A stretch of DNA of 37,013 nucleotides from NCBI GenBank assembly GCA_007618135.1, contig PHFX01000169.1, positions 1 through 37,013 of the forward strand. The letters run 5' to 3'. Source of the DNA: Candidatus Brocadia sp. WS118. Lineage in GTDB: Bacteria; Planctomycetota; Brocadiia; Brocadiales; Brocadiaceae. Below the pieces are notes generated by a model, which was not told where the DNA came from, made no database searches, and worked only from the letters and a program-made list of their open reading frames with translations. A program made the position numbers and the translations under genes. Positions 17,315 through 34,514 of the stretch are shown piece after piece (within the stretch, counting starts at the first letter, position 1; every line of letters starts with the position of its first letter).

Positions 17315-18868
17315 ATGAACTTTGTTACCAATAAAATAAAGATACCTATGTGGTTATTGTTTGTAACTTTAGGGGTACTTGCTTTAAGATCAGGAATTGT
17401 CTACGCAGCAGATCCAAACGGTTCTCAAACGTATTCGGACAGCATTGCAGGACTCAAATTTTCGGTTAATTTTATCTGGACGTTACTGGGCGCTTTTTTA
17501 GTATTTAGCATGCAGGCCGGATTTGCCTTTCTCGGTGGATTTTTAAGGCAAAAGAACATGTTGAGTTATATGGCTCATTGCTTTATAGATTCTACGTTCG
17601 GTGCCATGGTTTTTTATTTTTTTGGATTTGCCTTTATGTTTGGCGGCTCAAAATTAGCGCCAGGACTTGAAGATGGCAATGCCTGGATCGGGAACGATGG
17701 GTTTATGCTTTTGGGAGGCTCATATGATGTTCAGACGATTATGTTTTGGCTATTCCAGATGGTATTTGTCACGAAGGCAGTTTCAATTATTGCAGGTGCG
17801 GTAGCGGAACGGTTGAAATTCGGGGCATATCTTATTTATAGCTTCCTGATGTGTGGCCTGATTTATCCGATATACGGGCATTGGGTATGGGGTGGCGGTT
17901 GGTTGAGCACACTTCCCTTTGGCGCAGGGGTAAAAGATTTTGCCGGTTGTGCATGTGTGCATACGATTGGAGGAATCATGGCATTTGTTGGGGCATGGGT
18001 GCTTGGTCCGAGGAAAGGGAAATACAATCCTGACGGTTCTCCCAACGCAATTCCAGGTCACAATATTGCCTATATGGTTATCGGTACTTTTATCCTTGCA
18101 TTTGGATGGTTCGGTTTTAATGCCGGCAGTACCCTTGCTGCGACCGATTTGCGTATTTCTGTGATTGCAACGAACACCTTTCTTGGCGCCGCAGCCGGCG
18201 CCACGGTGATGTTGTTTTTAACATGGGGTATGACAGGTTATATTGATGTCCCTTATATCTGTAACGGTGCGCTTGCCGGGTTGGTTGCAATAACGGCTCC
18301 TTGCGCCTATGTTGCACCATGGGCTTCTGTGGTAATTGGAGTGGTTGCAGCCTTAATTATGAGGGGAACGATTTGGCTTGTAGAAGTAAAGATGAAGGTT
18401 GACGATCCGCTGGGTGCAGTTGCTGTACACGCGGCAAACGGTATGTGGGGCATGCTTGCGGTAGGTTTCTTAGCAGATGGCACCTATGGTGGGGTAAGCG
18501 GATTAATTACCGGTTCCGGATGGCAATTATTGGCTCAGTTTATCGGGACGGTAGTTGCTTTGGCCTGGGCATTTGCATGGGGTTGCGGCGTGTTTTTTAT
18601 AATAAGATATCACATGGGCGTCAGGGTGTCCGATCTTGTTGAGTTTGAAGGTATAGACATACATGTTCACGGTTCACCGTGTTATCCGGTAGAGGAAGGT
18701 CTCGTTTCCATTTCCGGAGAAGTAGTTGAGGAGCAGAAAGAGATGGACAGAGAGCAACTGTCTATACTTGAAAAGGCAATAAGCAACGATGCTACGCGGG
18801 AAAAGATCTACTCTGAGAAGCTTGGCAGATGGGTTTATGCATTGGTAAAACCGTCAAAAAAGAAATAA
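17315..18868 (+). CDS. amt: Ammonium transporter Amt1 with C-terminal extension
   Basis: A trimeric inner-membrane ammonium channel or transporter. After a signal peptide (about 1-32, ending VYAADP) come eleven predicted helices. Key residues are present: GHWVWGGGW around 189-196, D208 in KDFAG, and the pore twin-histidines H216 (CACVHTIGG) and H372 (AVHAANGMWG). The cytoplasmic tail begins FEGIDIHVHGSPCYP (about 444-458) and then runs some 60 residues further than usual, with a charged EVVEEQKEMDREQLSILEKA segment. The first-helix motif reads FLGGFLRQKN instead of the usual LEAGFVRxKN. GGGAGGAGAGG precedes the start. A P-II gene follows 56 bases downstream. Confidence 0.93.
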   Translation: MNFVTNKIKIPMWLLFVTLGVLALRSGIVYAADPNGSQTYSDSIAGLKFSVNFIWTLLGAFLVFSMQAGFAFLGGFLRQKNMLSYMAHCFIDSTFGAMVFYFFGFAFMFGGSKLAPGLEDGNAWIGNDGFMLLGGSYDVQTIMFWLFQMVFVTKAVSIIAGAVAERLKFGAYLIYSFLMCGLIYPIYGHWVWGGGWLSTLPFGAGVKDFAGCACVHTIGGIMAFVGAWVLGPRKGKYNPDGSPNAIPGHNIAYMVIGTFILAFGWFGFNAGSTLAATDLRISVIATNTFLGAAAGATVMLFLTWGMTGYIDVPYICNGALAGLVAITAPCAYVAPWASVVIGVVAALIMRGTIWLVEVKMKVDDPLGAVAVHAANGMWGMLAVGFLADGTYGGVSGLITGSGWQLLAQFIGTVVALAWAFAWGCGVFFIIRYHMGVRVSDLVEFEGIDIHVHGSPCYPVEEGLVSISGEVVEEQKEMDREQLSILEKAISNDATREKIYSEKLGRWVYALVKPSKKK

Positions 18869-18912
18869 AGATTGCATGTGAGAACGAAGTCGTTTCACGG
18901 TATTTTTCATGA

Positions 18913-19263
<351 letters not shown>

Positions 19264-19290
19264 CCCAAGTGGTTCAAACAACTTTTTTTA

Positions 19291-19327
19291 GCAGACATTG
19301 TCCCGTGGGATGCGGGACAATGTCTGC
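19291..19327. terminator. Perfect 15-bp hairpin between glnK1 and amt2
   Basis: GCAGACATTGTCCCG at 19291-19305 pairs with 19313-19327 around a 7-base loop (tgggatg). No U-tract follows, so it may be a weak terminator, a processing or stability element, or an attenuator. It begins 28 bases after the P-II stop and ends 27 bases before the amt2 start. Confidence 0.6.
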
Positions 19328-19354
19328 AATTTAGATGAAGACATCATATTGAAA

Positions 19355-20719
19355 ATGCGCACATTCATCTTCTTCCTTGGACTTATCGTTGGAATGGGAT
19401 TTTTTTTATTCCATCAGGTGTTTGCTGGAGACCCTAGTGGTGCCAATACCTATTCTGAAAGCATACAGGGATTAAAATTCTCTGTAAACTTTGCATGGAC
19501 GTTACTCAGTGCCTTTTTGGTGTTTAATATGCAAGCTGGATTTAGCTTCCTTGGTGCAGGCTTTGTTCAAAAGAAAAATACGCTCAATTACCTCTCCATG
19601 AGCTTTATCGATTTTTGTGTTGGGGCATTGGTTTTTTGGCTCATCGGTTTTGCTTTGATGTTTGGAGGTTCTCAACTGGCCCCAGGCCTTTCCTGTGGGA
19701 ACCGTTATATTGGATATAGCGGTTTTTTGCTGCTTGGTGATTCCTATGACGTATCAACGGCAGCGCTGTGGATGTTTCAGATTATGTTTGCTGCCACTTC
19801 CTGTACCATCGTAACGGGTGCTGTGGCAGAACGTTTTAAATTTCATGCACATGTAATTTACAGTGTCTTTGTCTGTTCGGTGCTTTATCCAATATTCGGA
19901 CACTGGATGTGGGGGAAGGGATGGCTGGAATTGTTGCCATTCGGGGTGGGCGCCCGAGATTTTGCTGGATCAGGATTAGTGCATGGAATGGGTGGTTTGA
20001 CGGCATTTGTTGCAGCGTGGATGGTAGGGCCAAGATATGGAAAATACAACCCTGACGGAAGTCCCAACGTCATTCATGGTCACAATCTGCTTTACATCGT
20101 AATCGGGACCCTTACCTTACTCTTCGGGTGGTTCGGGTTTAATGCGGGGAGCACCCTTGCCGTAACTGAACTTCGGGTGTCTATCATAGCTGTAAATACC
20201 TTTTTGGCTGCCGCATCGGGCGCCGTTACCCTTCTCTATCTTTCATTTTGCATAACAAAAAAATCAGATATCATCATGACCTGTAACGGTGCGTTGGCAG
20301 GTTGTGTTGCAATTACGGCATCAGGCGCATATGTACCGCCTTGGGCTGCAATCATTATAGGAATTATTGCCAGTTTAATCACACGAGTTTCTCTTTATAT
20401 CATTGAAACTAAATTAAAAATAGATGACCCGGTAGGCGCTATTTCTGTGCATGGAGCAAATGGACTTTGGGGATTGCTTTCCGTGGGTATCTTTTCTGAC
20501 GGAACATACGGGGGCGTAAAAGGGTTGATTGTAGGTTCTGGGTGGCAGTTGCTGGCACAATTTATTTCCTGTATTACGTTAATAGCGTGGTGTTTTTCTG
20601 CTGGCTTCCTTTTTTTCTTCGTTTTAAAACGAACGTTTGGTCTTCGGATACCTGTTAATGCCGAACGCTCCGGTATAGATGTCTATGAACATGGCACAAG
20701 TTGCTATCCTGGAACTTGA
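19355..20719 (+). CDS. amt: Ammonium transporter Amt2
   Basis: A second Amt, close in sequence to Amt1 (shared TYSxSIxGLKFSVNFxWTLL, NPDGSPN, GWFGFNAGSTLA). From the ATG at 19355 it has 454 residues with a signal peptide MRTFIFFLGLIVGMGFFLFH. D202, H210 (GLVHGMGGL) and H366 (ISVHGANGLWG) provide the conserved pore residues, and GHWMWGKGW the periplasmic loop. The C-terminal tail stops soon after RSGIDVYEHGTSCYP, so it lacks the Amt1 extension. The frame can be extended upstream to a TTG at 19298, but that segment is the hairpin described above and is not protein-like. No P-II gene follows it directly, so it may share glnK1. Confidence 0.92.
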   Translation: MRTFIFFLGLIVGMGFFLFHQVFAGDPSGANTYSESIQGLKFSVNFAWTLLSAFLVFNMQAGFSFLGAGFVQKKNTLNYLSMSFIDFCVGALVFWLIGFALMFGGSQLAPGLSCGNRYIGYSGFLLLGDSYDVSTAALWMFQIMFAATSCTIVTGAVAERFKFHAHVIYSVFVCSVLYPIFGHWMWGKGWLELLPFGVGARDFAGSGLVHGMGGLTAFVAAWMVGPRYGKYNPDGSPNVIHGHNLLYIVIGTLTLLFGWFGFNAGSTLAVTELRVSIIAVNTFLAAASGAVTLLYLSFCITKKSDIIMTCNGALAGCVAITASGAYVPPWAAIIIGIIASLITRVSLYIIETKLKIDDPVGAISVHGANGLWGLLSVGIFSDGTYGGVKGLIVGSGWQLLAQFISCITLIAWCFSAGFLFFFVLKRTFGLRIPVNAERSGIDVYEHGTSCYPGT

Positions 20720-21295
20720 TCCTTCAATACTGTCGGGTACCTTGCAGGATTCTGAATTTATAGCACATTCATAAAAATATTTTTGGTTTCAATCTCGTCA
20801 GTAACAAAATTCTGTGCTCTTCTCGATTCTTTCCGTATGTCAAAAGGCATTGTTCTCGTTTGCAGCAGGCCTTTTCCTAATTAAGATACTTTTCAAATAT
20901 CCTTACCGTTTCCTAGCCTTGACGCGATATCAAGGATAAATACAGATGGTAAGAGTGAATCTGCTAACTCAATTATGCTGGACAAGTATTTTTGGCTTAA
21001 ATAAGCCATTTGTATGTTAGCAAAATTCATGCAAAATGATTAATATACAATAAAAATAAGTCCTAGCAACTCAATTTATAAATGGTTATATAATTATTAA
21101 TATGTAATAATTCATTTTGGTTTATAATGTGCTCAAATAACTGGTAAAGTTCAAAAGTAGATACAAAATAATATCTATAAATCAGAGCAAAAATAAAGTT
21201 ATCAGGGTTTAATAATATTTATTGTTTGCTATAAGGTGGCACTCTTCAGATTTTCCCATTATCGCATAGTATCCTGAGCTATGAGAGGTGTATCT
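20720..21295. other. Intergenic region before the diheme cytochrome gene
   Basis: AT-rich, with a small GGCTTA/TAAGCC pair at 20993-21006 and a CCTTGA...TCAAGG pair near 20918-20936, neither followed by T-runs. TGGCAC at about 21237 matches a sigma-54 -24 core, but the -12 GC is missing. GAGAGG ahead of 21296 is the ribosome binding site of the next gene. Confidence 0.4.
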
Positions 21296-22240
21296 ATGTT
21301 CAATCATTATTTCCATGTCTGTCAGGTCTTAATGTTTTTCGTGTTCGAATTCTTAACTTTCCCAGTATTTTCACAAAACTTTGTAGTTAATGGGATTTTA
21401 GAAAGAAAAGAACAGGAAATGGGTATCAAAGATAGTATTGTACGTAAAAAATCGCTAATCATCAAAGACAAACGAGTTTACATCCAGATAGTACTTGATG
21501 AAGGCGCCAGAAATATTACAAACCACAAGAGATTCAAAGAAGTGTCGTATTTGCTGCCAAAAGAAATCGTCTATGATGAAACAGTCCGGCGCATATTTTA
21601 TTATAAGGATAATACCGAATTTGAGGTAGGAAGGGAGAAAAGCTTTTTAGGATTTATGCCCTACATTGCCTTAGCCGATGGGGTAACGATAGCAAGTTCC
21701 CCAACAGATGCTAAATTATTGATTTCGTTCAATAAAGATTGCCAGGGGATTCCGAAATCAATTATTCATTCAGAAGAGGAAATGGAAGTGACTTTGAAAA
21801 AGAAATGCGGGCAGTGTCATATTTTAGAATATATATTTGCCCATAAAAATTGGGTAGAAGAAGATATATTGCATGCGTTCAATAGGATGCAGATGGGCAA
21901 CGAAGAAAGATTCACGCCTGACGAACAGAAAATAATTGATCTTTTTAAAAAATATCAGAAAGGCGAGATAGATAAGGGCAGACTCGCCGAGTTCAAATCA
22001 TTAAAGGAAATTGGAGAAAAAGATGTTACTGCTTTTACCGAAGGGATATACATGACCAATTGTGTGCCTTGTCATAACCCGTCAAAGATGTCGGATGTCT
22101 CATTGTTATATACAAAACGCAGATGCAAGAGTATTGTTGACCGGATGAAGGAAAAAGAGCCATCCCTGTTTCTCCAAAAAGACATGGACAGTTTAGCCAG
22201 CTATTTATGGGAAATAAAGCTTAGACCGTACGAGAATTAG
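21296..22240 (+). CDS. Exported diheme c-type cytochrome
   Basis: From the ATG at 21296 (GAGAGG correctly spaced) the protein has 314 residues and a signal peptide (MFNHYFHVCQVLMFFVFEFL). Two CXXCH motifs, CGQCH 171-175 and CVPCH 256-260, lie in two small c-type domains. Each is followed by a conserved NRMQM or DRMKEK segment whose methionine could be the sixth ligand. The N-terminal 165 residues contain no heme and are beta-rich (KDKRVYIQIVLDEGARNI, KEVSYLLPKEIVYDE), an unrecognised domain. It should act in the periplasm-like compartment or anammoxosome as an electron carrier or sensor. Its place between amt2 and amt3 is unusual. An ATG at 21281 is less likely. Confidence 0.82.
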   Translation: MFNHYFHVCQVLMFFVFEFLTFPVFSQNFVVNGILERKEQEMGIKDSIVRKKSLIIKDKRVYIQIVLDEGARNITNHKRFKEVSYLLPKEIVYDETVRRIFYYKDNTEFEVGREKSFLGFMPYIALADGVTIASSPTDAKLLISFNKDCQGIPKSIIHSEEEMEVTLKKKCGQCHILEYIFAHKNWVEEDILHAFNRMQMGNEERFTPDEQKIIDLFKKYQKGEIDKGRLAEFKSLKEIGEKDVTAFTEGIYMTNCVPCHNPSKMSDVSLLYTKRRCKSIVDRMKEKEPSLFLQKDMDSLASYLWEIKLRPYEN

Positions 22241-22394
22241 TGTTTTTCATCAGAGGGGAGGTGGTAGGATGAGACAATGAAGAATGAAGCTTTTGATCTG
22301 TAGTTTTGTTTGATGAAAGTATCTGATGGATGATGTTCTCTTGCATGTGGTTTAGGATAAAAAAGGTGATTAATAACTTTTAAAGGAGAGGTTT

Positions 22395-23735
22395 ATGAGA
22401 AAAGGGGCCTTTTTAGGTGTTTCATCGATTTTTGCATTGTCGATGATAATGCTCTATGCATCAAATGCGTTAGCGGCTGATGCACCGCAAATTGATAAGG
22501 GGAATAATGCGTGGTTGTTAACATCGTCGGCGTTGGTTTTGATTATGACACCTGGTCTTGCCTTGTTTTACGGGGGTATGGTGAGGGCAAAGAACATGGT
22601 AAATACGATGTGGTTGAGTTTTATTGTTATGTGCATTGTGAGTATACAGTGGGTACTTTATGGCTATAGTCTTTCTTTCGCTCCCGGGGGTTGGTTTATT
22701 GGCGGTCTTCAATGGTGCGGATTGGGGGCAGGTACGGTTGGACAGGCACCGAGTGATCTTTATGCAACATCAATACCCCATCTCACTTTTATGACTTTTC
22801 AATGTATGTTTGCTATAATTACGCCTGCACTGATGACGGGTACCTTCGCAGAACGGTTTAAATTCAATGCATGGCTCTTACTGATCCTCTTATGGACGGC
22901 AGCGGTCTATGCACCTATGGCGCATTGGGTATGGGCGACAGACGGATGGCTGTTTAAATTAGGAGCCTTGGATTTTGCCGGGGGAACCGTTGTTCACATT
23001 TGCTCCGGCGCATCTGGCGCTGCAGTGATGATGCTTGTGGGGAAACGGAAAGGTTACCCGAAAGAAATTAAACCTCCTCATAATTTGCCTTTCATGATGC
23101 TGGGTACTGGCTTACTGTGGTTTGGGTGGTTTGGTTTTAATGCCGGTAGTGCCGTGGCTGCTGATGGGCTCGCTGCAAGTGCATTTGTAGTTACCAATAC
23201 CGCCGCGGCTGCAGCCGGATTTACCTGGTCTGTTCTGGAGTGGATACATCACAAGAAACCCACGATACTGGGCGCTTGTTCAGGTGCTGTAGCAGGATTA
23301 GTTTCTATTACACCGGCGTCGGGTTTCGTAGGACCTATGGCGTCGATTGCGATAGGTGTTGGTGGCGGACTTGTGTGCTTTTACTGTGTAACAAAAATGA
23401 AGAAGGCCTTAGGATATGACGACGCCCTTGACGTTATCGGCGTACATGCAATGGGTGGAACTTGGGGGGCGTTTGCCACAGGGATCTTTTGCAGCACAGC
23501 GGTTAATCCAGCAGGAGTCGATGGTCTCATCTACGGTAATGTTGTTATCATTGGAAAACAGTGGATTGGCATCGTTGCTGCATGGGCATGGTCTTTTGGT
23601 ATAACAACGCTGTTAGGCTGGTTTGTACAAGCAACGGTTGGTTTGAGACCTAGCGAGTCAGAAGAAGTTGCCGGTCTGGACATTTCTCAGCATAAGGAAA
23701 TTGCTTACCACTATTATGAGACCGAAAGCACGTAA
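22395..23735 (+). CDS. amtB: Ammonium transporter Amt3 (AmtB-type)
   Basis: A 446-residue Amt of the classical AmtB subtype, distinct from Amt1/Amt2. The signal peptide ends NALAADAP. The first helix carries GLALFYGGMVRAKNM. D193, H201 (GGTVVHICSG) and H351 (DVIGVHAMGGTWG) are the expected pore residues, and MAHWVWATDGW the periplasmic loop. The C-terminal signature reads AGLDISQHKEIAYHYYE, where most Amts have HGE. This tail contacts P-II, so the change could matter. AAAGGAGAGG precedes the ATG. glnK2 follows 89 bases later, and the pair ends at an intrinsic terminator. Confidence 0.94.
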   Translation: MRKGAFLGVSSIFALSMIMLYASNALAADAPQIDKGNNAWLLTSSALVLIMTPGLALFYGGMVRAKNMVNTMWLSFIVMCIVSIQWVLYGYSLSFAPGGWFIGGLQWCGLGAGTVGQAPSDLYATSIPHLTFMTFQCMFAIITPALMTGTFAERFKFNAWLLLILLWTAAVYAPMAHWVWATDGWLFKLGALDFAGGTVVHICSGASGAAVMMLVGKRKGYPKEIKPPHNLPFMMLGTGLLWFGWFGFNAGSAVAADGLAASAFVVTNTAAAAAGFTWSVLEWIHHKKPTILGACSGAVAGLVSITPASGFVGPMASIAIGVGGGLVCFYCVTKMKKALGYDDALDVIGVHAMGGTWGAFATGIFCSTAVNPAGVDGLIYGNVVIIGKQWIGIVAAWAWSFGITTLLGWFVQATVGLRPSESEEVAGLDISQHKEIAYHYYETEST

Positions 23736-30407: not shown

Positions 30408-31853
30408 ATGACCAAAGACCCGATATCCACATCATGGTTTTCCATAAGCCGGCGAAAGATGCTGGGAAGTCTGCTGGTGGGGATAGGCGCTTTGCTTACC
30501 GGTTGCGGCATGACTTTCCTTGGACAATGTGCCAGTGATAAAGGCAAAGTCCTGCTCAATCGTGTTCCAGACCTTCCTCCAGGCCTTCGGGAGGCTGTCC
30601 GTTTTCCGCTGATTGAAGCTCTCCAGGGTCGGCGTGCCCGCCGTTTTGCACTCGGAGCCTCAATTCCAGCAGGCCCTCTGGCATTTACTTCACAATACGA
30701 CCCGATGCCGCTCAGCGAACTGGAACAGATGATGGTACTGCTGGCGGTCGGTGGCAATACCGGATGGTTCTATCTGCATCCTTACAACCCCAGGTATGCA
30801 CCGCACATCCCAAACTACGCCAGCGCCTCAGGCGGACGCACGTTCCCTTCGGCTGCGGGATTCCATACGAGCGAGTTTTTCTATACCGATGATAATGGCG
30901 TATATTTTCTCTCCACGCGCGACGCCCCTTCTTTGGTCGGGCGTAATGCAGACGGGACAATGGATCTAAACGCCTATTTACAGACCCATCGTTCTCATAT
31001 CCGCAAGCTTAAAGATGGACGCATGCACATACCCGCCAATCCGGCCCACATCGAAATGCATAACCCCTGGTGTGTGAACCTGCCGGGGAGTACCCTCATT
31101 ATGCCTGTGGCCGATCTTGCCCAGCATCAGATTGCCGCCCTCTGTTATCTGGTTCAGAATGGTGCGTGCATCTATGATGATATTCACAAAAACCCCATCC
31201 CTGGGATGGAACGGTTTCGCTCCCTGGTCGATGTGGAACATCCATATCCCCTGACATACATCGAGCAATTGACGCTGACCGAAGCAACCGCGGAGATTTC
31301 AACCGCCTGTTATTCAGGCATGCTGATGTTACAGGCAATGGGGCTTGGCGGCTGGATGTTCGACGGAATCACCCCCCTCAGCATCCTCGGCGCCAGCGGC
31401 GACCCCAAGGTACCCGGACTCGGATTCCGGTATGACACCAACGAGCGCTGGCCCCTGCCGAATGTGACCGGCCTGCCCGGTGTATTCGAAGGCTACTGTC
31501 CGCCTCATTATCCCACCATGCGGGCTGCAGTGGATGCGCTTGTCACACGCAAGTTCGGTCCTGGTGGTCCGTTTCATCCGGAAACCCCTGGCCCCTACCG
31601 CGAAAACCAGCGAATCCGTGGAAGCGGTGAGATACACAGCGAGGAATTCAAGGAGTGTGTTGTTACCATGGCACAATATATCTTCGACCGCTTCGGTAAA
31701 TTCCCGGGCGTTGTTCCCACGCTTTTTATGTTAACGTATCTCCAGGCCCATCACCTTGACTTAGAGTTTTATGACAAACACTTTAGTCCCGGGGCGTATC
31801 TTGAAACGCACGCCCACCACATGAAGCTATGGCATGCTGCGTCTCCGTCCTGA
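30408..31853 (+). CDS. Probable lipoprotein of unknown function
   Basis: A 481-residue protein with an N-terminal SRRKMLGSLLVGIGALLTGC segment. This combines a twin-arginine-like SRRKM, a hydrophobic stretch and a lipobox whose Cys33 would be lipidated. The body is rich in Pro, His and Gly and shows no repeats or heme motifs. PLSELEQMMVLLAVGGNTGW and LTEATAEISTACYSGMLMLQ faintly resemble nitroreductase-fold segments, but I would not assign that fold. GGTGGG precedes the ATG. The gene is richer in G+C than the amt region and borders the cassette block, suggesting transfer. Family unknown. Confidence 0.75.
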   Translation: MTKDPISTSWFSISRRKMLGSLLVGIGALLTGCGMTFLGQCASDKGKVLLNRVPDLPPGLREAVRFPLIEALQGRRARRFALGASIPAGPLAFTSQYDPMPLSELEQMMVLLAVGGNTGWFYLHPYNPRYAPHIPNYASASGGRTFPSAAGFHTSEFFYTDDNGVYFLSTRDAPSLVGRNADGTMDLNAYLQTHRSHIRKLKDGRMHIPANPAHIEMHNPWCVNLPGSTLIMPVADLAQHQIAALCYLVQNGACIYDDIHKNPIPGMERFRSLVDVEHPYPLTYIEQLTLTEATAEISTACYSGMLMLQAMGLGGWMFDGITPLSILGASGDPKVPGLGFRYDTNERWPLPNVTGLPGVFEGYCPPHYPTMRAAVDALVTRKFGPGGPFHPETPGPYRENQRIRGSGEIHSEEFKECVVTMAQYIFDRFGKFPGVVPTLFMLTYLQAHHLDLEFYDKHFSPGAYLETHAHHMKLWHAASPS

Positions 31854-32000: not shown

Positions 32001-32018
32001 TAGCCTATTTTCAGGCTA
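32001..32018. terminator. Short hairpin after the HD-domain cassette
   Basis: TAGCCT at 32001-32006 and AGGCTA at 32013-32018 form a 6-bp stem around ATTTTC, between the convergent lipoprotein and HD genes. It is a weak candidate terminator without a clear T-run. Confidence 0.3.
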
Positions 32019-32028
32019 ACCGCTCCGC

Positions 32029-32460
32029 TTAGGCGCCAAGCCCTCGCTCCAGAACTTCTTTCACTTGCTCGTACTCCTTGAGACGTGCGTAATCCCGTTC
32101 CGTCGGATTAGCGATACGCTTGAGATCCATGTTGTCTGCGACATCTGCGAGTTTTACGGCCCGCGCGATGGGGTTGCGAACAGCTCGGTGGGCTGCCTCA
32201 AGACGAGACTCCCCCGGTAGTTTCGTAAGGACTCGGACCGCCTCAACAACCTCGGCGGGGAAACCCTCGGCCTTGAGATCCTCAAATGTGACCAACGTAT
32301 CTTCGACCACGTCATGCAAGATCGCAGCCATTTGCTGACCCGGCGTATCAAGAGACAACATGAGCCGAAGCGGGTGAAAGACGTAGGGAGCGCCAGCCTT
32401 GTCCACTTGGCCTGCATGAGCTCGCGCTGCAATTTGGATGGCTCGTTCAATCGTGCTCAT
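32029..32460 (-). CDS. HD-domain hydrolase (RelA/SpoT-like), integron cassette gene
   Basis: A 143-residue stand-alone HD domain like the (p)ppGpp hydrolase half of RelA/SpoT. It has AARAHAGQVDKAGAPYVFHP (first metal His), AAILHDVVEDT (the HD pair) and VKLADVADNMDLKRI (final Asp). All metal ligands appear present. Small relatives hydrolyse (p)ppGpp or other nucleotides; the actual substrate is unknown. AGGAA is 6 bases before the ATG, and the start lies 14 bases after attC2, the normal layout of an integron gene cassette. Its stop overlaps GCCTAAG, a degenerate attC end. High G+C content sets it apart from the host genes. Confidence 0.85.
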   Translation of the reverse strand: MSTIERAIQIAARAHAGQVDKAGAPYVFHPLRLMLSLDTPGQQMAAILHDVVEDTLVTFEDLKAEGFPAEVVEAVRVLTKLPGESRLEAAHRAVRNPIARAVKLADVADNMDLKRIANPTERDYARLKEYEQVKEVLERGLGA

Positions 32461-32474
32461 GGCTGGTTCCTAGC

Positions 32475-32546
32475 GCCTAACGCTCACGTTGACCGGCCGC
32501 GGCGAGCGAATGCGAGCCAGCGGTCTGGTCGAACGTGTTGTTGGGC
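32475..32546 (-). repeat. attC2: integron recombination site (72 bp)
   Basis: Read on the minus strand it starts with GCCCAAC (RYYYAAC) and ends with GTTAGGC (GTTRRRY). Inside, CACGTTCGACC pairs with GGTCAACGTG, leaving one unpaired C as in true attC sites. A G+C-rich centre completes the fold. It separates the PD-(D/E)XK-like gene from the HD gene. Confidence 0.85.
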
Positions 32547-33443
32547 ATCAGCAGGTTCACAACCACGGGCAAGCACCGGAGCATTGGGTTTCGATGTCTT
32601 CGAATGTAATCCAAGCAAGCCGGGACACAACTGTCGCCCGTCGATCCCAGTGCGATGTGGAAGGTCACGGGCAAGCGAGTTCGGATTCGATCGATAATCC
32701 TCGAGCAGCCAACCATACAACCGTGAATGAGGGTGCTTGCGAAATACCTCTGGCGTGAGAAGCGCGAATAGTGACAGCTCCGGCCTCCGAGCACCAAAGG
32801 CTGCCGGGAGGTTCGGGTATCGGTCGAGCATCACGTCGATGCACCGCGCGACTTGGTTGCGGAGCATGTCGAACGACACGTGCGAGGAGATGTCCGAGAG
32901 AACCTTTGCCTCAACCAGCAAGGAGAAACCATTTCTGGGATTTACGATCACGGCGTCGAAGTGAGTGGCGCCTTCTAGTGGGCGCTGCGTTCCACGCGCG
33001 GCGGCATCGAGGACGTATGGGATGCACTGCCGGGCGCGAAGATTCTTCCGGAGCCAATCGATGTAAGACGTTGGCGAAGGAGCCTGAGCCTCAAAGTACA
33101 ATGCCAGGTCTCCCTCAAGGCACTCACGCCACGTACCGAGGCCATCAAAAGGCGGCTTCTCCCCGAATGCCCTGGAGAGCAGGGACTCAAGCGCAGAGCC
33201 TCGGTTCGGGTGCCCGAAGAGATACTTCAGGGTGCCGGCGGTCCAGAAGCGCTCGTCCTTTTCGATCTGCCTGGCTAGCCGGGCAGCCGTGATGGGAATC
33301 CTTGTCGTATCTGGATTGTGCGCCAGGAACTGCCGATACCGTGTGGCACTTCTCTCGAAATAGTCGAGCTGACCGTCTACGTCGACTAGGAAGTGCGGCC
33401 TCATCTGGTCTCGCGTGAAGCGGAGGTACTTGTCGTCGATCAT
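32484..33443 (-). CDS. PD-(D/E)XK-like nuclease-fold protein, cassette gene, probably frameshifted
   Basis: About 319 residues as the open frame reads. The segment THFDAVIVNPRNGFSLLVEA, followed by KVLSD, has the D-x(n)-ExK arrangement of the PD-(D/E)XK nuclease fold. The rest is alpha-helical and not assigned. The ATG at 33443 has AGGAAG correctly placed and starts 16 bases after attC1; an ATG at 33467 lies inside attC1 and is rejected. Near 32649 the frame loses coding character, while the alternative frame gives WDRRATVVSRLAWITFEDIE and stops at 32557, 10 bases before attC2. One inserted base restores this, so the gene is probably frameshifted or the sequence has an error here. Confidence 0.7.
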   Translation of the reverse strand: MIDDKYLRFTRDQMRPHFLVDVDGQLDYFERSATRYRQFLAHNPDTTRIPITAARLARQIEKDERFWTAGTLKYLFGHPNRGSALESLLSRAFGEKPPFDGLGTWRECLEGDLALYFEAQAPSPTSYIDWLRKNLRARQCIPYVLDAAARGTQRPLEGATHFDAVIVNPRNGFSLLVEAKVLSDISSHVSFDMLRNQVARCIDVMLDRYPNLPAAFGARRPELSLFALLTPEVFRKHPHSRLYGWLLEDYRSNPNSLARDLPHRTGIDGRQLCPGLLGLHSKTSKPNAPVLARGCEPADAQQHVRPDRWLAFARRGRST

Positions 33444-33458
33444 GTTGTTCTTCCTGCT

Positions 33459-33593
33459 GCCCAACATTAAGTATTTTATCCGTAGTTGAGCAGGATAATA
33501 AAACCATACCGATTATACCTGAATCTGTGAAAAGAGAAAGAAACTTATCCTTCCCTCTTCGCTAGCTCAATTACGGATAAAATACCGTTGAAC
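33459..33593 (-). repeat. attC1: long integron recombination site (135 bp)
   Basis: On the minus strand it opens with GTTCAAC (RYYYAAC) and closes with GTTGGGC (GTTRRRY). The arms GTATTTTATCCGTAATTGAG and the reverse complement of GTATTTTATCCGTAGTTGAG pair over about 21 bases with one mismatch, around an AT-rich loop of about 73 bases. Size and layout fit long attC sites. The cassette that should precede it is no longer recognisable. Confidence 0.75.
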
Positions 33594-33638
33594 GAAGCCG
33601 CTGCACCCCACACTATGGGGATTCAATCATACGGCTTC
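33594..33638. repeat. Nested small inverted repeat beside attC1
   Basis: GAAGCCG at 33594-33600 pairs with CGGCTTC at 33632-33638, enclosing CCCCA/TGGGG (33606-33610, 33616-33620). It abuts attC1 and may belong to the lost preceding cassette or to the transposon remnant. Confidence 0.4.
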
Positions 33639-33825
33639 TCGGTAAAATACTTTTTTTGTTACTTGTGTTGTTGATATTTGTCAAGAATGCTGTAGGAAAC
33701 ATCATGTTTTTCCGGAGATATTTTGAAAATTCAGGTATTCTTTCAAGGTATTTGCTCAAAAAGGGCGTACTTCTCCCCTTTGTACGGTAAAATACACTTC
33801 CCTATGAAATAAATCAAGACTAAAA

Positions 33826-34047
33826 TTACACCTCCCCGGGCGGTGAATGAATGAGGGGGAGTAATGTTTCTCTCCTCACCATCCTGCCTTTTCCACAACA
33901 AGGGCATATACGGGGATCAATCCCGGTAAGCCTGGTACATAATTCTTCCCAGCTCTCCGGTGCAGCTAGCTCTTGTTCATCACTGGTGGAAGCCCCGAGT
34001 ATCTCCTTACAGAGCCTTATCTTTGCCTTCCGATTCCGGTTGGGCAA
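33826..34047 (-). pseudogene. IS91-family transposase C-terminal remnant
   Basis: A 73-codon frame ending WEELCTRLTGIDPRICPCCG and KGRMVRRE, the zinc-finger-like C-terminal tail of IS91/ISCR-type transposases. The HUH catalytic core is missing. The 5' end is cut off at the GGGCAAG tandem repeat. No IS ends were recognised. Confidence 0.65.
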
Positions 34048-34065: not shown

Positions 34066-34081
34066 TCACCTTGATTAGTGA

Positions 34082-34514
34082 TTAAATTTCTTCTAATCGT
34101 TTATGAATTCCAGCATCTTTCGATATCTGTGATTTCATAATCGTTACCCGCCGACTGATGGAAGAATAACCAAGACCAAACAAATTGCCAATCTCCTGAT
34201 TATTATACCACCCTGTGCTCCATAAAAGATGGATCAATAAATCACGATTGTGTTTGTCTGAATCGCATATCCTGGCGGATTGTAAGAAACATTCGTATTG
34301 CATTGTAATACCTTTGCGACTTTCTCTAAGATGGTTTTAGGATTGGTATCTCTTAAAACGTGCCGCTTCTGAGGAATTTCGCCATCAGTTTTTCGGACAA
34401 ATATCTGGACCTGATATCGTCAACAAACTTCTGTGAACCTAAAAAAAGGCCGTGCCAGAAATCTTCCCATATTCTTTTCTCTTCCCGGGAATATCTTTGG
34501 GTCGTTTCTCTATT
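34082..34514 (-). pseudogene. RAYT (REP-associated tyrosine transposase) C-terminal remnant, multiple frameshifts
   Basis: Three reading frames in order spell the C-terminal half of a Y1/RAYT transposase. The first has FWHGLFLGSQKFVDDIRSRY and LSEKLM. The second has EIPQKRHVLRDTNPKTILEK and VAKVL. The third, open from 34303, has KHNRDLLIHLLWSTGWYNNQ and EIGNLFGLGYSSISRRV. The last part is the DnaA-C-like helix-turn-helix common in these proteins. The catalytic HUH and Tyr part is absent. At least two frameshifts make it non-functional, though the 73-codon 3' frame alone could still be translated as a solo helix-turn-helix. Confidence 0.65.

Follow-up and report, generated by a model that had tools for sequence, protein, structure and literature searches.

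Does the region around positions 32029-33593 of this DNA hold an integron cassette array without an integrase, and are both of its long inverted repeats attC sites? The original prediction, made from the sequence alone, held that they are. Here, we analysed the window, i.e. the whole stretch of 37,013 nt on contig C232, together with the rest of the genome and with related genomes. We conclude that 32014-34042 is very probably what decay has left of an integron cassette array, and that it meets the chromosome at a junction common to a relative. Its features and flanks, listed in gene direction, are the following.

34072-34497, minus strand: left array flank with an 84-aa ORF, aligned in the locus comparison with the relative G015 (89%)
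33463-34042, minus strand: truncated remnant of an IS91-family element, with a C-terminal piece of its Y2 transposase (about 33832-34047); 89-90% identity to copies L067/L071
33459-33593, minus strand: 135-bp palindrome, the 3' terminus of the IS91-family element plus the GTTGGGC that opens the PD cassette; about 21 copies in related genomes
32557-33443, minus strand: cassette gene 1, PD-(D/E)XK-like, beginning MIDDKYL; 22 relatives, invariant D...E-x-K
32475-32546, minus strand: canonical 72-bp attC between both cassettes; covariance model R1, bottom-strand fold
32029-32460, minus strand: cassette gene 2, a 143-aa HD-domain small alarmone hydrolase; HD_4, spoT_relA, 7smg
32014-32034, minus strand: collapsed attC of the HD cassette, GCCTAAG-CGGAGCG-GTTAGCC, and array/chromosome junction, common to G015
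30408-31853, plus strand: conserved chromosomal gene, right array flank; 89% identity to the gene adjoining the G015 array

Read along the minus strand, the IS91 remnant (34042-33463) leads through the palindrome (33593-33459) to the start of the PD gene at 33443, and this gene is followed by the attC (32546-32475), the HD gene (32460-32029), the collapsed attC (32034-32014) and the chromosome. The ATG of the PD gene lies 15 nt past its GTTRRRY box and that of the HD gene 14 nt past its own, with AGGAA(G) before each, in line with the predicted start of both genes 14-16 bases after a site. Their G+C contents, 0.59 (PD) and 0.57 (HD) against 0.42 in the remaining window, are as unlike the host as was claimed. 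This spacing, the shifted composition and one genuine attC bear out the reading of both genes as cassettes. By what is known of integrons, the cassettes would have been inserted by an integron integrase acting on the folded bottom strand of attC, at G|TTRRRY. Searches of the window for Rfam families, tRNA and tmRNA gave no matches. The 84-aa ORF of the left flank has no Pfam match; we take it to resemble the C-terminus of a REP-associated-type transposase. Three ammonium transporter genes cluster elsewhere in the window (17315-23735), which is no more than compatible with the anammox host presumed in the original prediction; a search for hydrazine synthase gave no match, in the controls either, and is thus uninformative.

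In the close relative G015, the counterpart of the gene at 30408-31853 precedes an attC, a cassette for a PIN toxin and antitoxin (named by sequence), a homologue of the hydrolase (72%) and another site resembling attC. The GTTAGCC|TGAAAA junction is identical in the window and at the last attC of this syntenic array, and the far flank also matches. The PD gene is absent from the G015 array. Hence, one array site carries different cassettes in two relatives. The comparison with relatives, proposed as a way to find an empty site, showed an array with other cassettes at the same place in G015. Since a hydrolase homologue sits at the same chromosomal place, its presence here is not purely the result of a recent insertion. 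The attC of the hydrolase cassette is down to about 20-21 bp in both genomes (32014-32034 in the window, 6.2 bits by our covariance model with filters off). Its collapsed form, at 32014-32034 here and at about 4480-4520 of L138, was perhaps produced by a deletion across the palindrome.

Might the two genes simply be native to the chromosome, and the repeats ordinary terminator-like palindromes? The hydrolase homologue that G015 has close to its copy of the flanking gene would fit, but the G015 locus itself has canonical attCs and other neighbours, the PD gene occurs in only 2 of the 75 genomes of the class, and the base composition of both genes departs from that of the remaining window. This explanation, already disfavoured, is barely credible. 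Contamination or an assembly artefact might be suspected in a draft genome of 5.04 Mb in 299 contigs with 3.4% contamination, and the PD gene is frameshifted. Yet both flanks match the same locus in G015, a single-contig genome, and we consider an artefact very improbable.

The 72-bp attC and the integron integrases of the genome

The site at 32475-32546 is a genuine attC. It has R''=GCCCAAC and R'=GTTAGGC boxes, its R and L arms pair, the stem carries a bulge, and as DNA its bottom strand folds with a z of -4.7, against -2.4 for the top strand. To search for such sites we used R1, a covariance model built from 22 attC sites of 57-88 nt, 17 of them from related genomes and five from class 1 integron plasmids, with no site from this genome; the standard IntegronFinder model is separate. 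Given this range of lengths, R1 penalises long or atypical attCs. An earlier alignment that included long sites (A2) aligned poorly and was discarded. Within the window R1 has a single match, the minus strand of 32475-32546, at 46.4 bits (E 6e-9).

Two full attC sites had been claimed. Both inverted repeats are present, with boxes of the RYYYAAC/GTTRRRY type at each, and a motif-plus-stem finder gives both 32475-32546 and 33459-33593 scores of 31-35, whereas ten shuffled versions of the window never exceed 28. The claim stands for the first site but not for the second, to which R1, penalising long or atypical sites as it does, gives 8.8-9.8 bits with filters off, and which is the end of an IS91-family element.

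A covariance-model search with R1, in the window and genome-wide as had been suggested, recovered many more sites than the one in the window: R1 has 23 matches in the genome at E<0.02 (about 22 besides the window's), several of them in same-strand groups (C69, C142, C47). At E<=0.001 there are 14 matches in this genome, against 0, 0 and 1 in three control genomes of non-relatives; Desulfofustis has 3. At this threshold all 33 genomes searched in the host's family have matches, from 1 to 29 apiece, and integrons thus probably keep supplying these bacteria with foreign genes. An integron integrase gene (IntI) scores above the cut-off in 14 of these 33 genomes.

None of the 29 integrase-profile matches of the genome falls on the window's contig. 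The array was thus rightly called integrase-less as far as the window goes, but the label fails for the genome, where the proposed search for intI elsewhere uncovered an intact gene on contig C36 (TIGR02249, 364 bits against a cut-off of 265) and two relics (C213, C234). The C36 gene is oriented divergently to an attI-like core and a pair of cassettes with attCs (G000:C36, L027 7746-9016), one for an uncharacterised 159-aa protein (P0004) and the other for an addiction-module antitoxin and a ParE/RelE-like toxin. Its product could act in trans on the attC at 32475.

The cassette genes

The first cassette gene is frameshifted at about 32638. The homologous C-terminus, ...RLAWITFEDIETQCSGACPWL, continues in the other frame up to a TGA at 32559-32557, 10 nt ahead of the attC, and the uninterrupted ORF runs on into the attC, to 32484. 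True decay and a fault in the assembly could each account for the frameshift. One search gave 22 relatives of the protein, from many bacterial and archaeal phyla. Across 21 aligned sequences D163, E178 and K180 are invariant, i.e. an acidic residue and an E-x-K motif, in keeping with the PD-(D/E)XK-like label. The protein matches nothing in Pfam, NCBIfam or PADLOC. Its predicted structure (pLDDT 77.7) has weak structural matches throughout (best Z 4.8), among which PD-(D/E)XK nucleases are prominent. The gene probably encodes, or encoded before the frameshift, a nuclease.

A homologue 58% identical, in another genus (G033), also sits in a cassette array, with other attCs. Beside the relatives elsewhere the motif-plus-stem finder mostly detected no attC. 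R1 matches occur directly upstream of the gene in Desulfofustis (L043 5917-5980) and beside the relative in an Eisenbacteria MAG (L041 965-1083 and 2975-3096). We found no relatives on plasmids or phages. Two further relatives lie between direct repeats that score far above shuffles. In Thermodesulfatator autotrophicus (L049 6001-6906) the repeats are perfect over 18 bp and the gene, to judge from its flanks, apparently lies between pheS and pheT; in a Chloroflexi genome (L045) they span 40 bp at 92.5%. These repeats suggest a single-gene mobile unit.

The second cassette gene was rightly predicted to be of the RelA/SpoT HD type. Its product exceeds the Pfam cut-off for HD_4, scores 57.7 bits with spoT_relA, and is closest among solved chains to 7smg, a (p)ppApp hydrolase, over nearly its full length (E 1e-33, 119.6 bits). 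It has one HD domain, of the kind found in RelA/SpoT hydrolases, and no synthetase, as in small alarmone hydrolases. To judge from these similarities, its substrates are probably alarmones such as (p)ppApp or (p)ppGpp. The idea that the two genes are defence cargo found no support, as neither matches PADLOC.

A palindrome at the end of an IS91-family element

At 33459-33593 the boxes are R''=GTTCAAC and R'=GTTGGGC; the arms of 21 bp mismatch at one position, the spacers are short and unequal, and no extrahelical base is clear. About 21 copies of its DNA occur in related genomes, at 76-96% identity. Homology runs leftwards from the window copy for up to 580 bp, at 89-90% identity to L067 and L071, and in intact copies it extends into a gene for a 404-aa Y2 transposase (Y2_Tnp, PF04986, E 6e-58 in L071), of which the window retains a C-terminal piece only. 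By comparison among these copies, which also served to map the ends of the element, 33459-33593 represents the 3' end of an IS91-family element that is truncated and abuts a cassette boundary. A VCR-like attC family, specific to the lineage, had been considered as the only explanation of the palindrome and was dropped because homology continues into the transposase gene. An attI site was discarded as well, as the intact integrons L101 and L102 carry attI without the palindrome.

The right boundary of the copies reads ...CTTAAT|GTT or nearly so, with the exception of one decayed copy. The four bases after this GTT fit RRRY fully in 13 of 21 copies and at no fewer than three positions in 18 of 21; against an expectation of 1/16 the full fit gives a binomial p of about 3e-11, which is a guide only, since the copies share ancestry. 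Mostly, a ribosome-binding site and a start codon come next. The left end reads GTT|GAACGAAACCGCTTCGCGGTAG, and most of the examined copies have an attC or attI directly against this end (GTT|GAAC). An attC matched by R1 ends at the boundary in L065, L068, L087/L094, L096 and L098 (those of L065, L096 and L098 belong to the training set of R1), weakly in L069, and is cut off in L030. The flank is attI-like beside integrase genes in L028 and L085, and by sequence similarity in L098. In L089, L092, L095 and L106 it does not clearly show either. The same genome holds a divergent element on a 3.1-kb contig (G000:C211, L030), where a tyrosine recombinase gene and a Y2 transposase element are bounded by GTTGAAC and GTTAGGG: its left end is GTTGAAC, and on the right GTTCAAC and a 15-bp palindrome arm are followed by GTTAGGG and a gene start.

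How did the element come to lie at such sites? Its Y2 transposase might carry it into attC and attI sites at their GTT core, in which case the palindrome would be an oriIS-like terminus that mimics an attC. IS91 has a GTTC-type target adjoining its origin end. Intact copies run from the transposase gene into the palindrome without a break, the fixed right boundary opens with GTT, a clear extrahelical base is missing and R1 does not detect the site. We give movement by the transposase an even chance. It leaves unexplained, however, the GTT at both boundaries and the complementarity of R'' (GTTCAAC) to the left end (GTTGAAC).

This complementarity is exact, as cassettes need, and recurs in the divergent C211 element; with both ends at integron crossover points in most copies examined, it speaks for another reading. 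On that reading the element would itself be an integron cassette with the palindrome as its attC, and would owe its place between cassettes to IntI instead of the transposase. There is a precedent in ISCR28, an IS91-like element of sul4 integrons with attC sites at its end, for which passive shuffling as cassettes was suggested and both possibilities, cassette and target, were raised (PMC12772301). Against it, R1 does not recognise the palindrome, in which neither a clear extrahelical base nor a balanced unpaired spacer is seen, both features being tied to attC recombination (PMC2727003). Placement by IntI is a serious candidate whose probability falls somewhat short of one half; were it true, the second of the predicted attC sites would be functional. 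At that probability, the element may have become an integron cassette in the host's family, or may hitch-hike as one, the 3' palindrome acting as attC and the 5' end supplying the R' half to match. Integron integrases would then spread a transposase-bearing element among arrays.

Comparison with known systems

Cassette arrays are known from many phyla, and that of the window is one more case. As in CALIN, its single-gene cassettes are bounded by attC, share one orientation and have no integrase nearby. In this sense it was aptly called CALIN-like, but it keeps one attC detectable by the model and the genome has an intact IntI elsewhere. We count one canonical, one atypical and one collapsed attC. 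IntegronFinder 2 by default requires at least two attC sites for CALIN (PMC9024848), and with R1 detecting one the array would fall below this default. The HD gene resembles small alarmone hydrolases of the 7smg type in being a single HD domain of 143 aa and differs from them in being carried as an integron cassette.

A CALIN-type remnant is ordinary; the interesting part is the IS91 element tied to integron sites. Less ordinary, in particular, is that the ends of a transposase element fall on crossover sites of integrons, and do so in many genomes. Such an element would join HUH-type single-strand transposition with single-strand attC recombination. Its palindrome can also mislead attC finders and human readers, who may see an attC in what is possibly a transposon end.

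Like ISCR28, the window's element belongs with IS91-family transposases, occurs in an integron context and has an attC-like 3' end. The likeness is drawn by description, and the window's family differs in being dispersed among the host's relatives with both ends at crossover points; unlike ISCR28, some of its copies carry a tyrosine recombinase gene. The IS1111-attC group and group IIC introns are likewise mobile elements at integron recombination sites, but they use an IS110-type enzyme or a reverse transcriptase, whereas the enzyme here is a Y2 (HUH-type) transposase.
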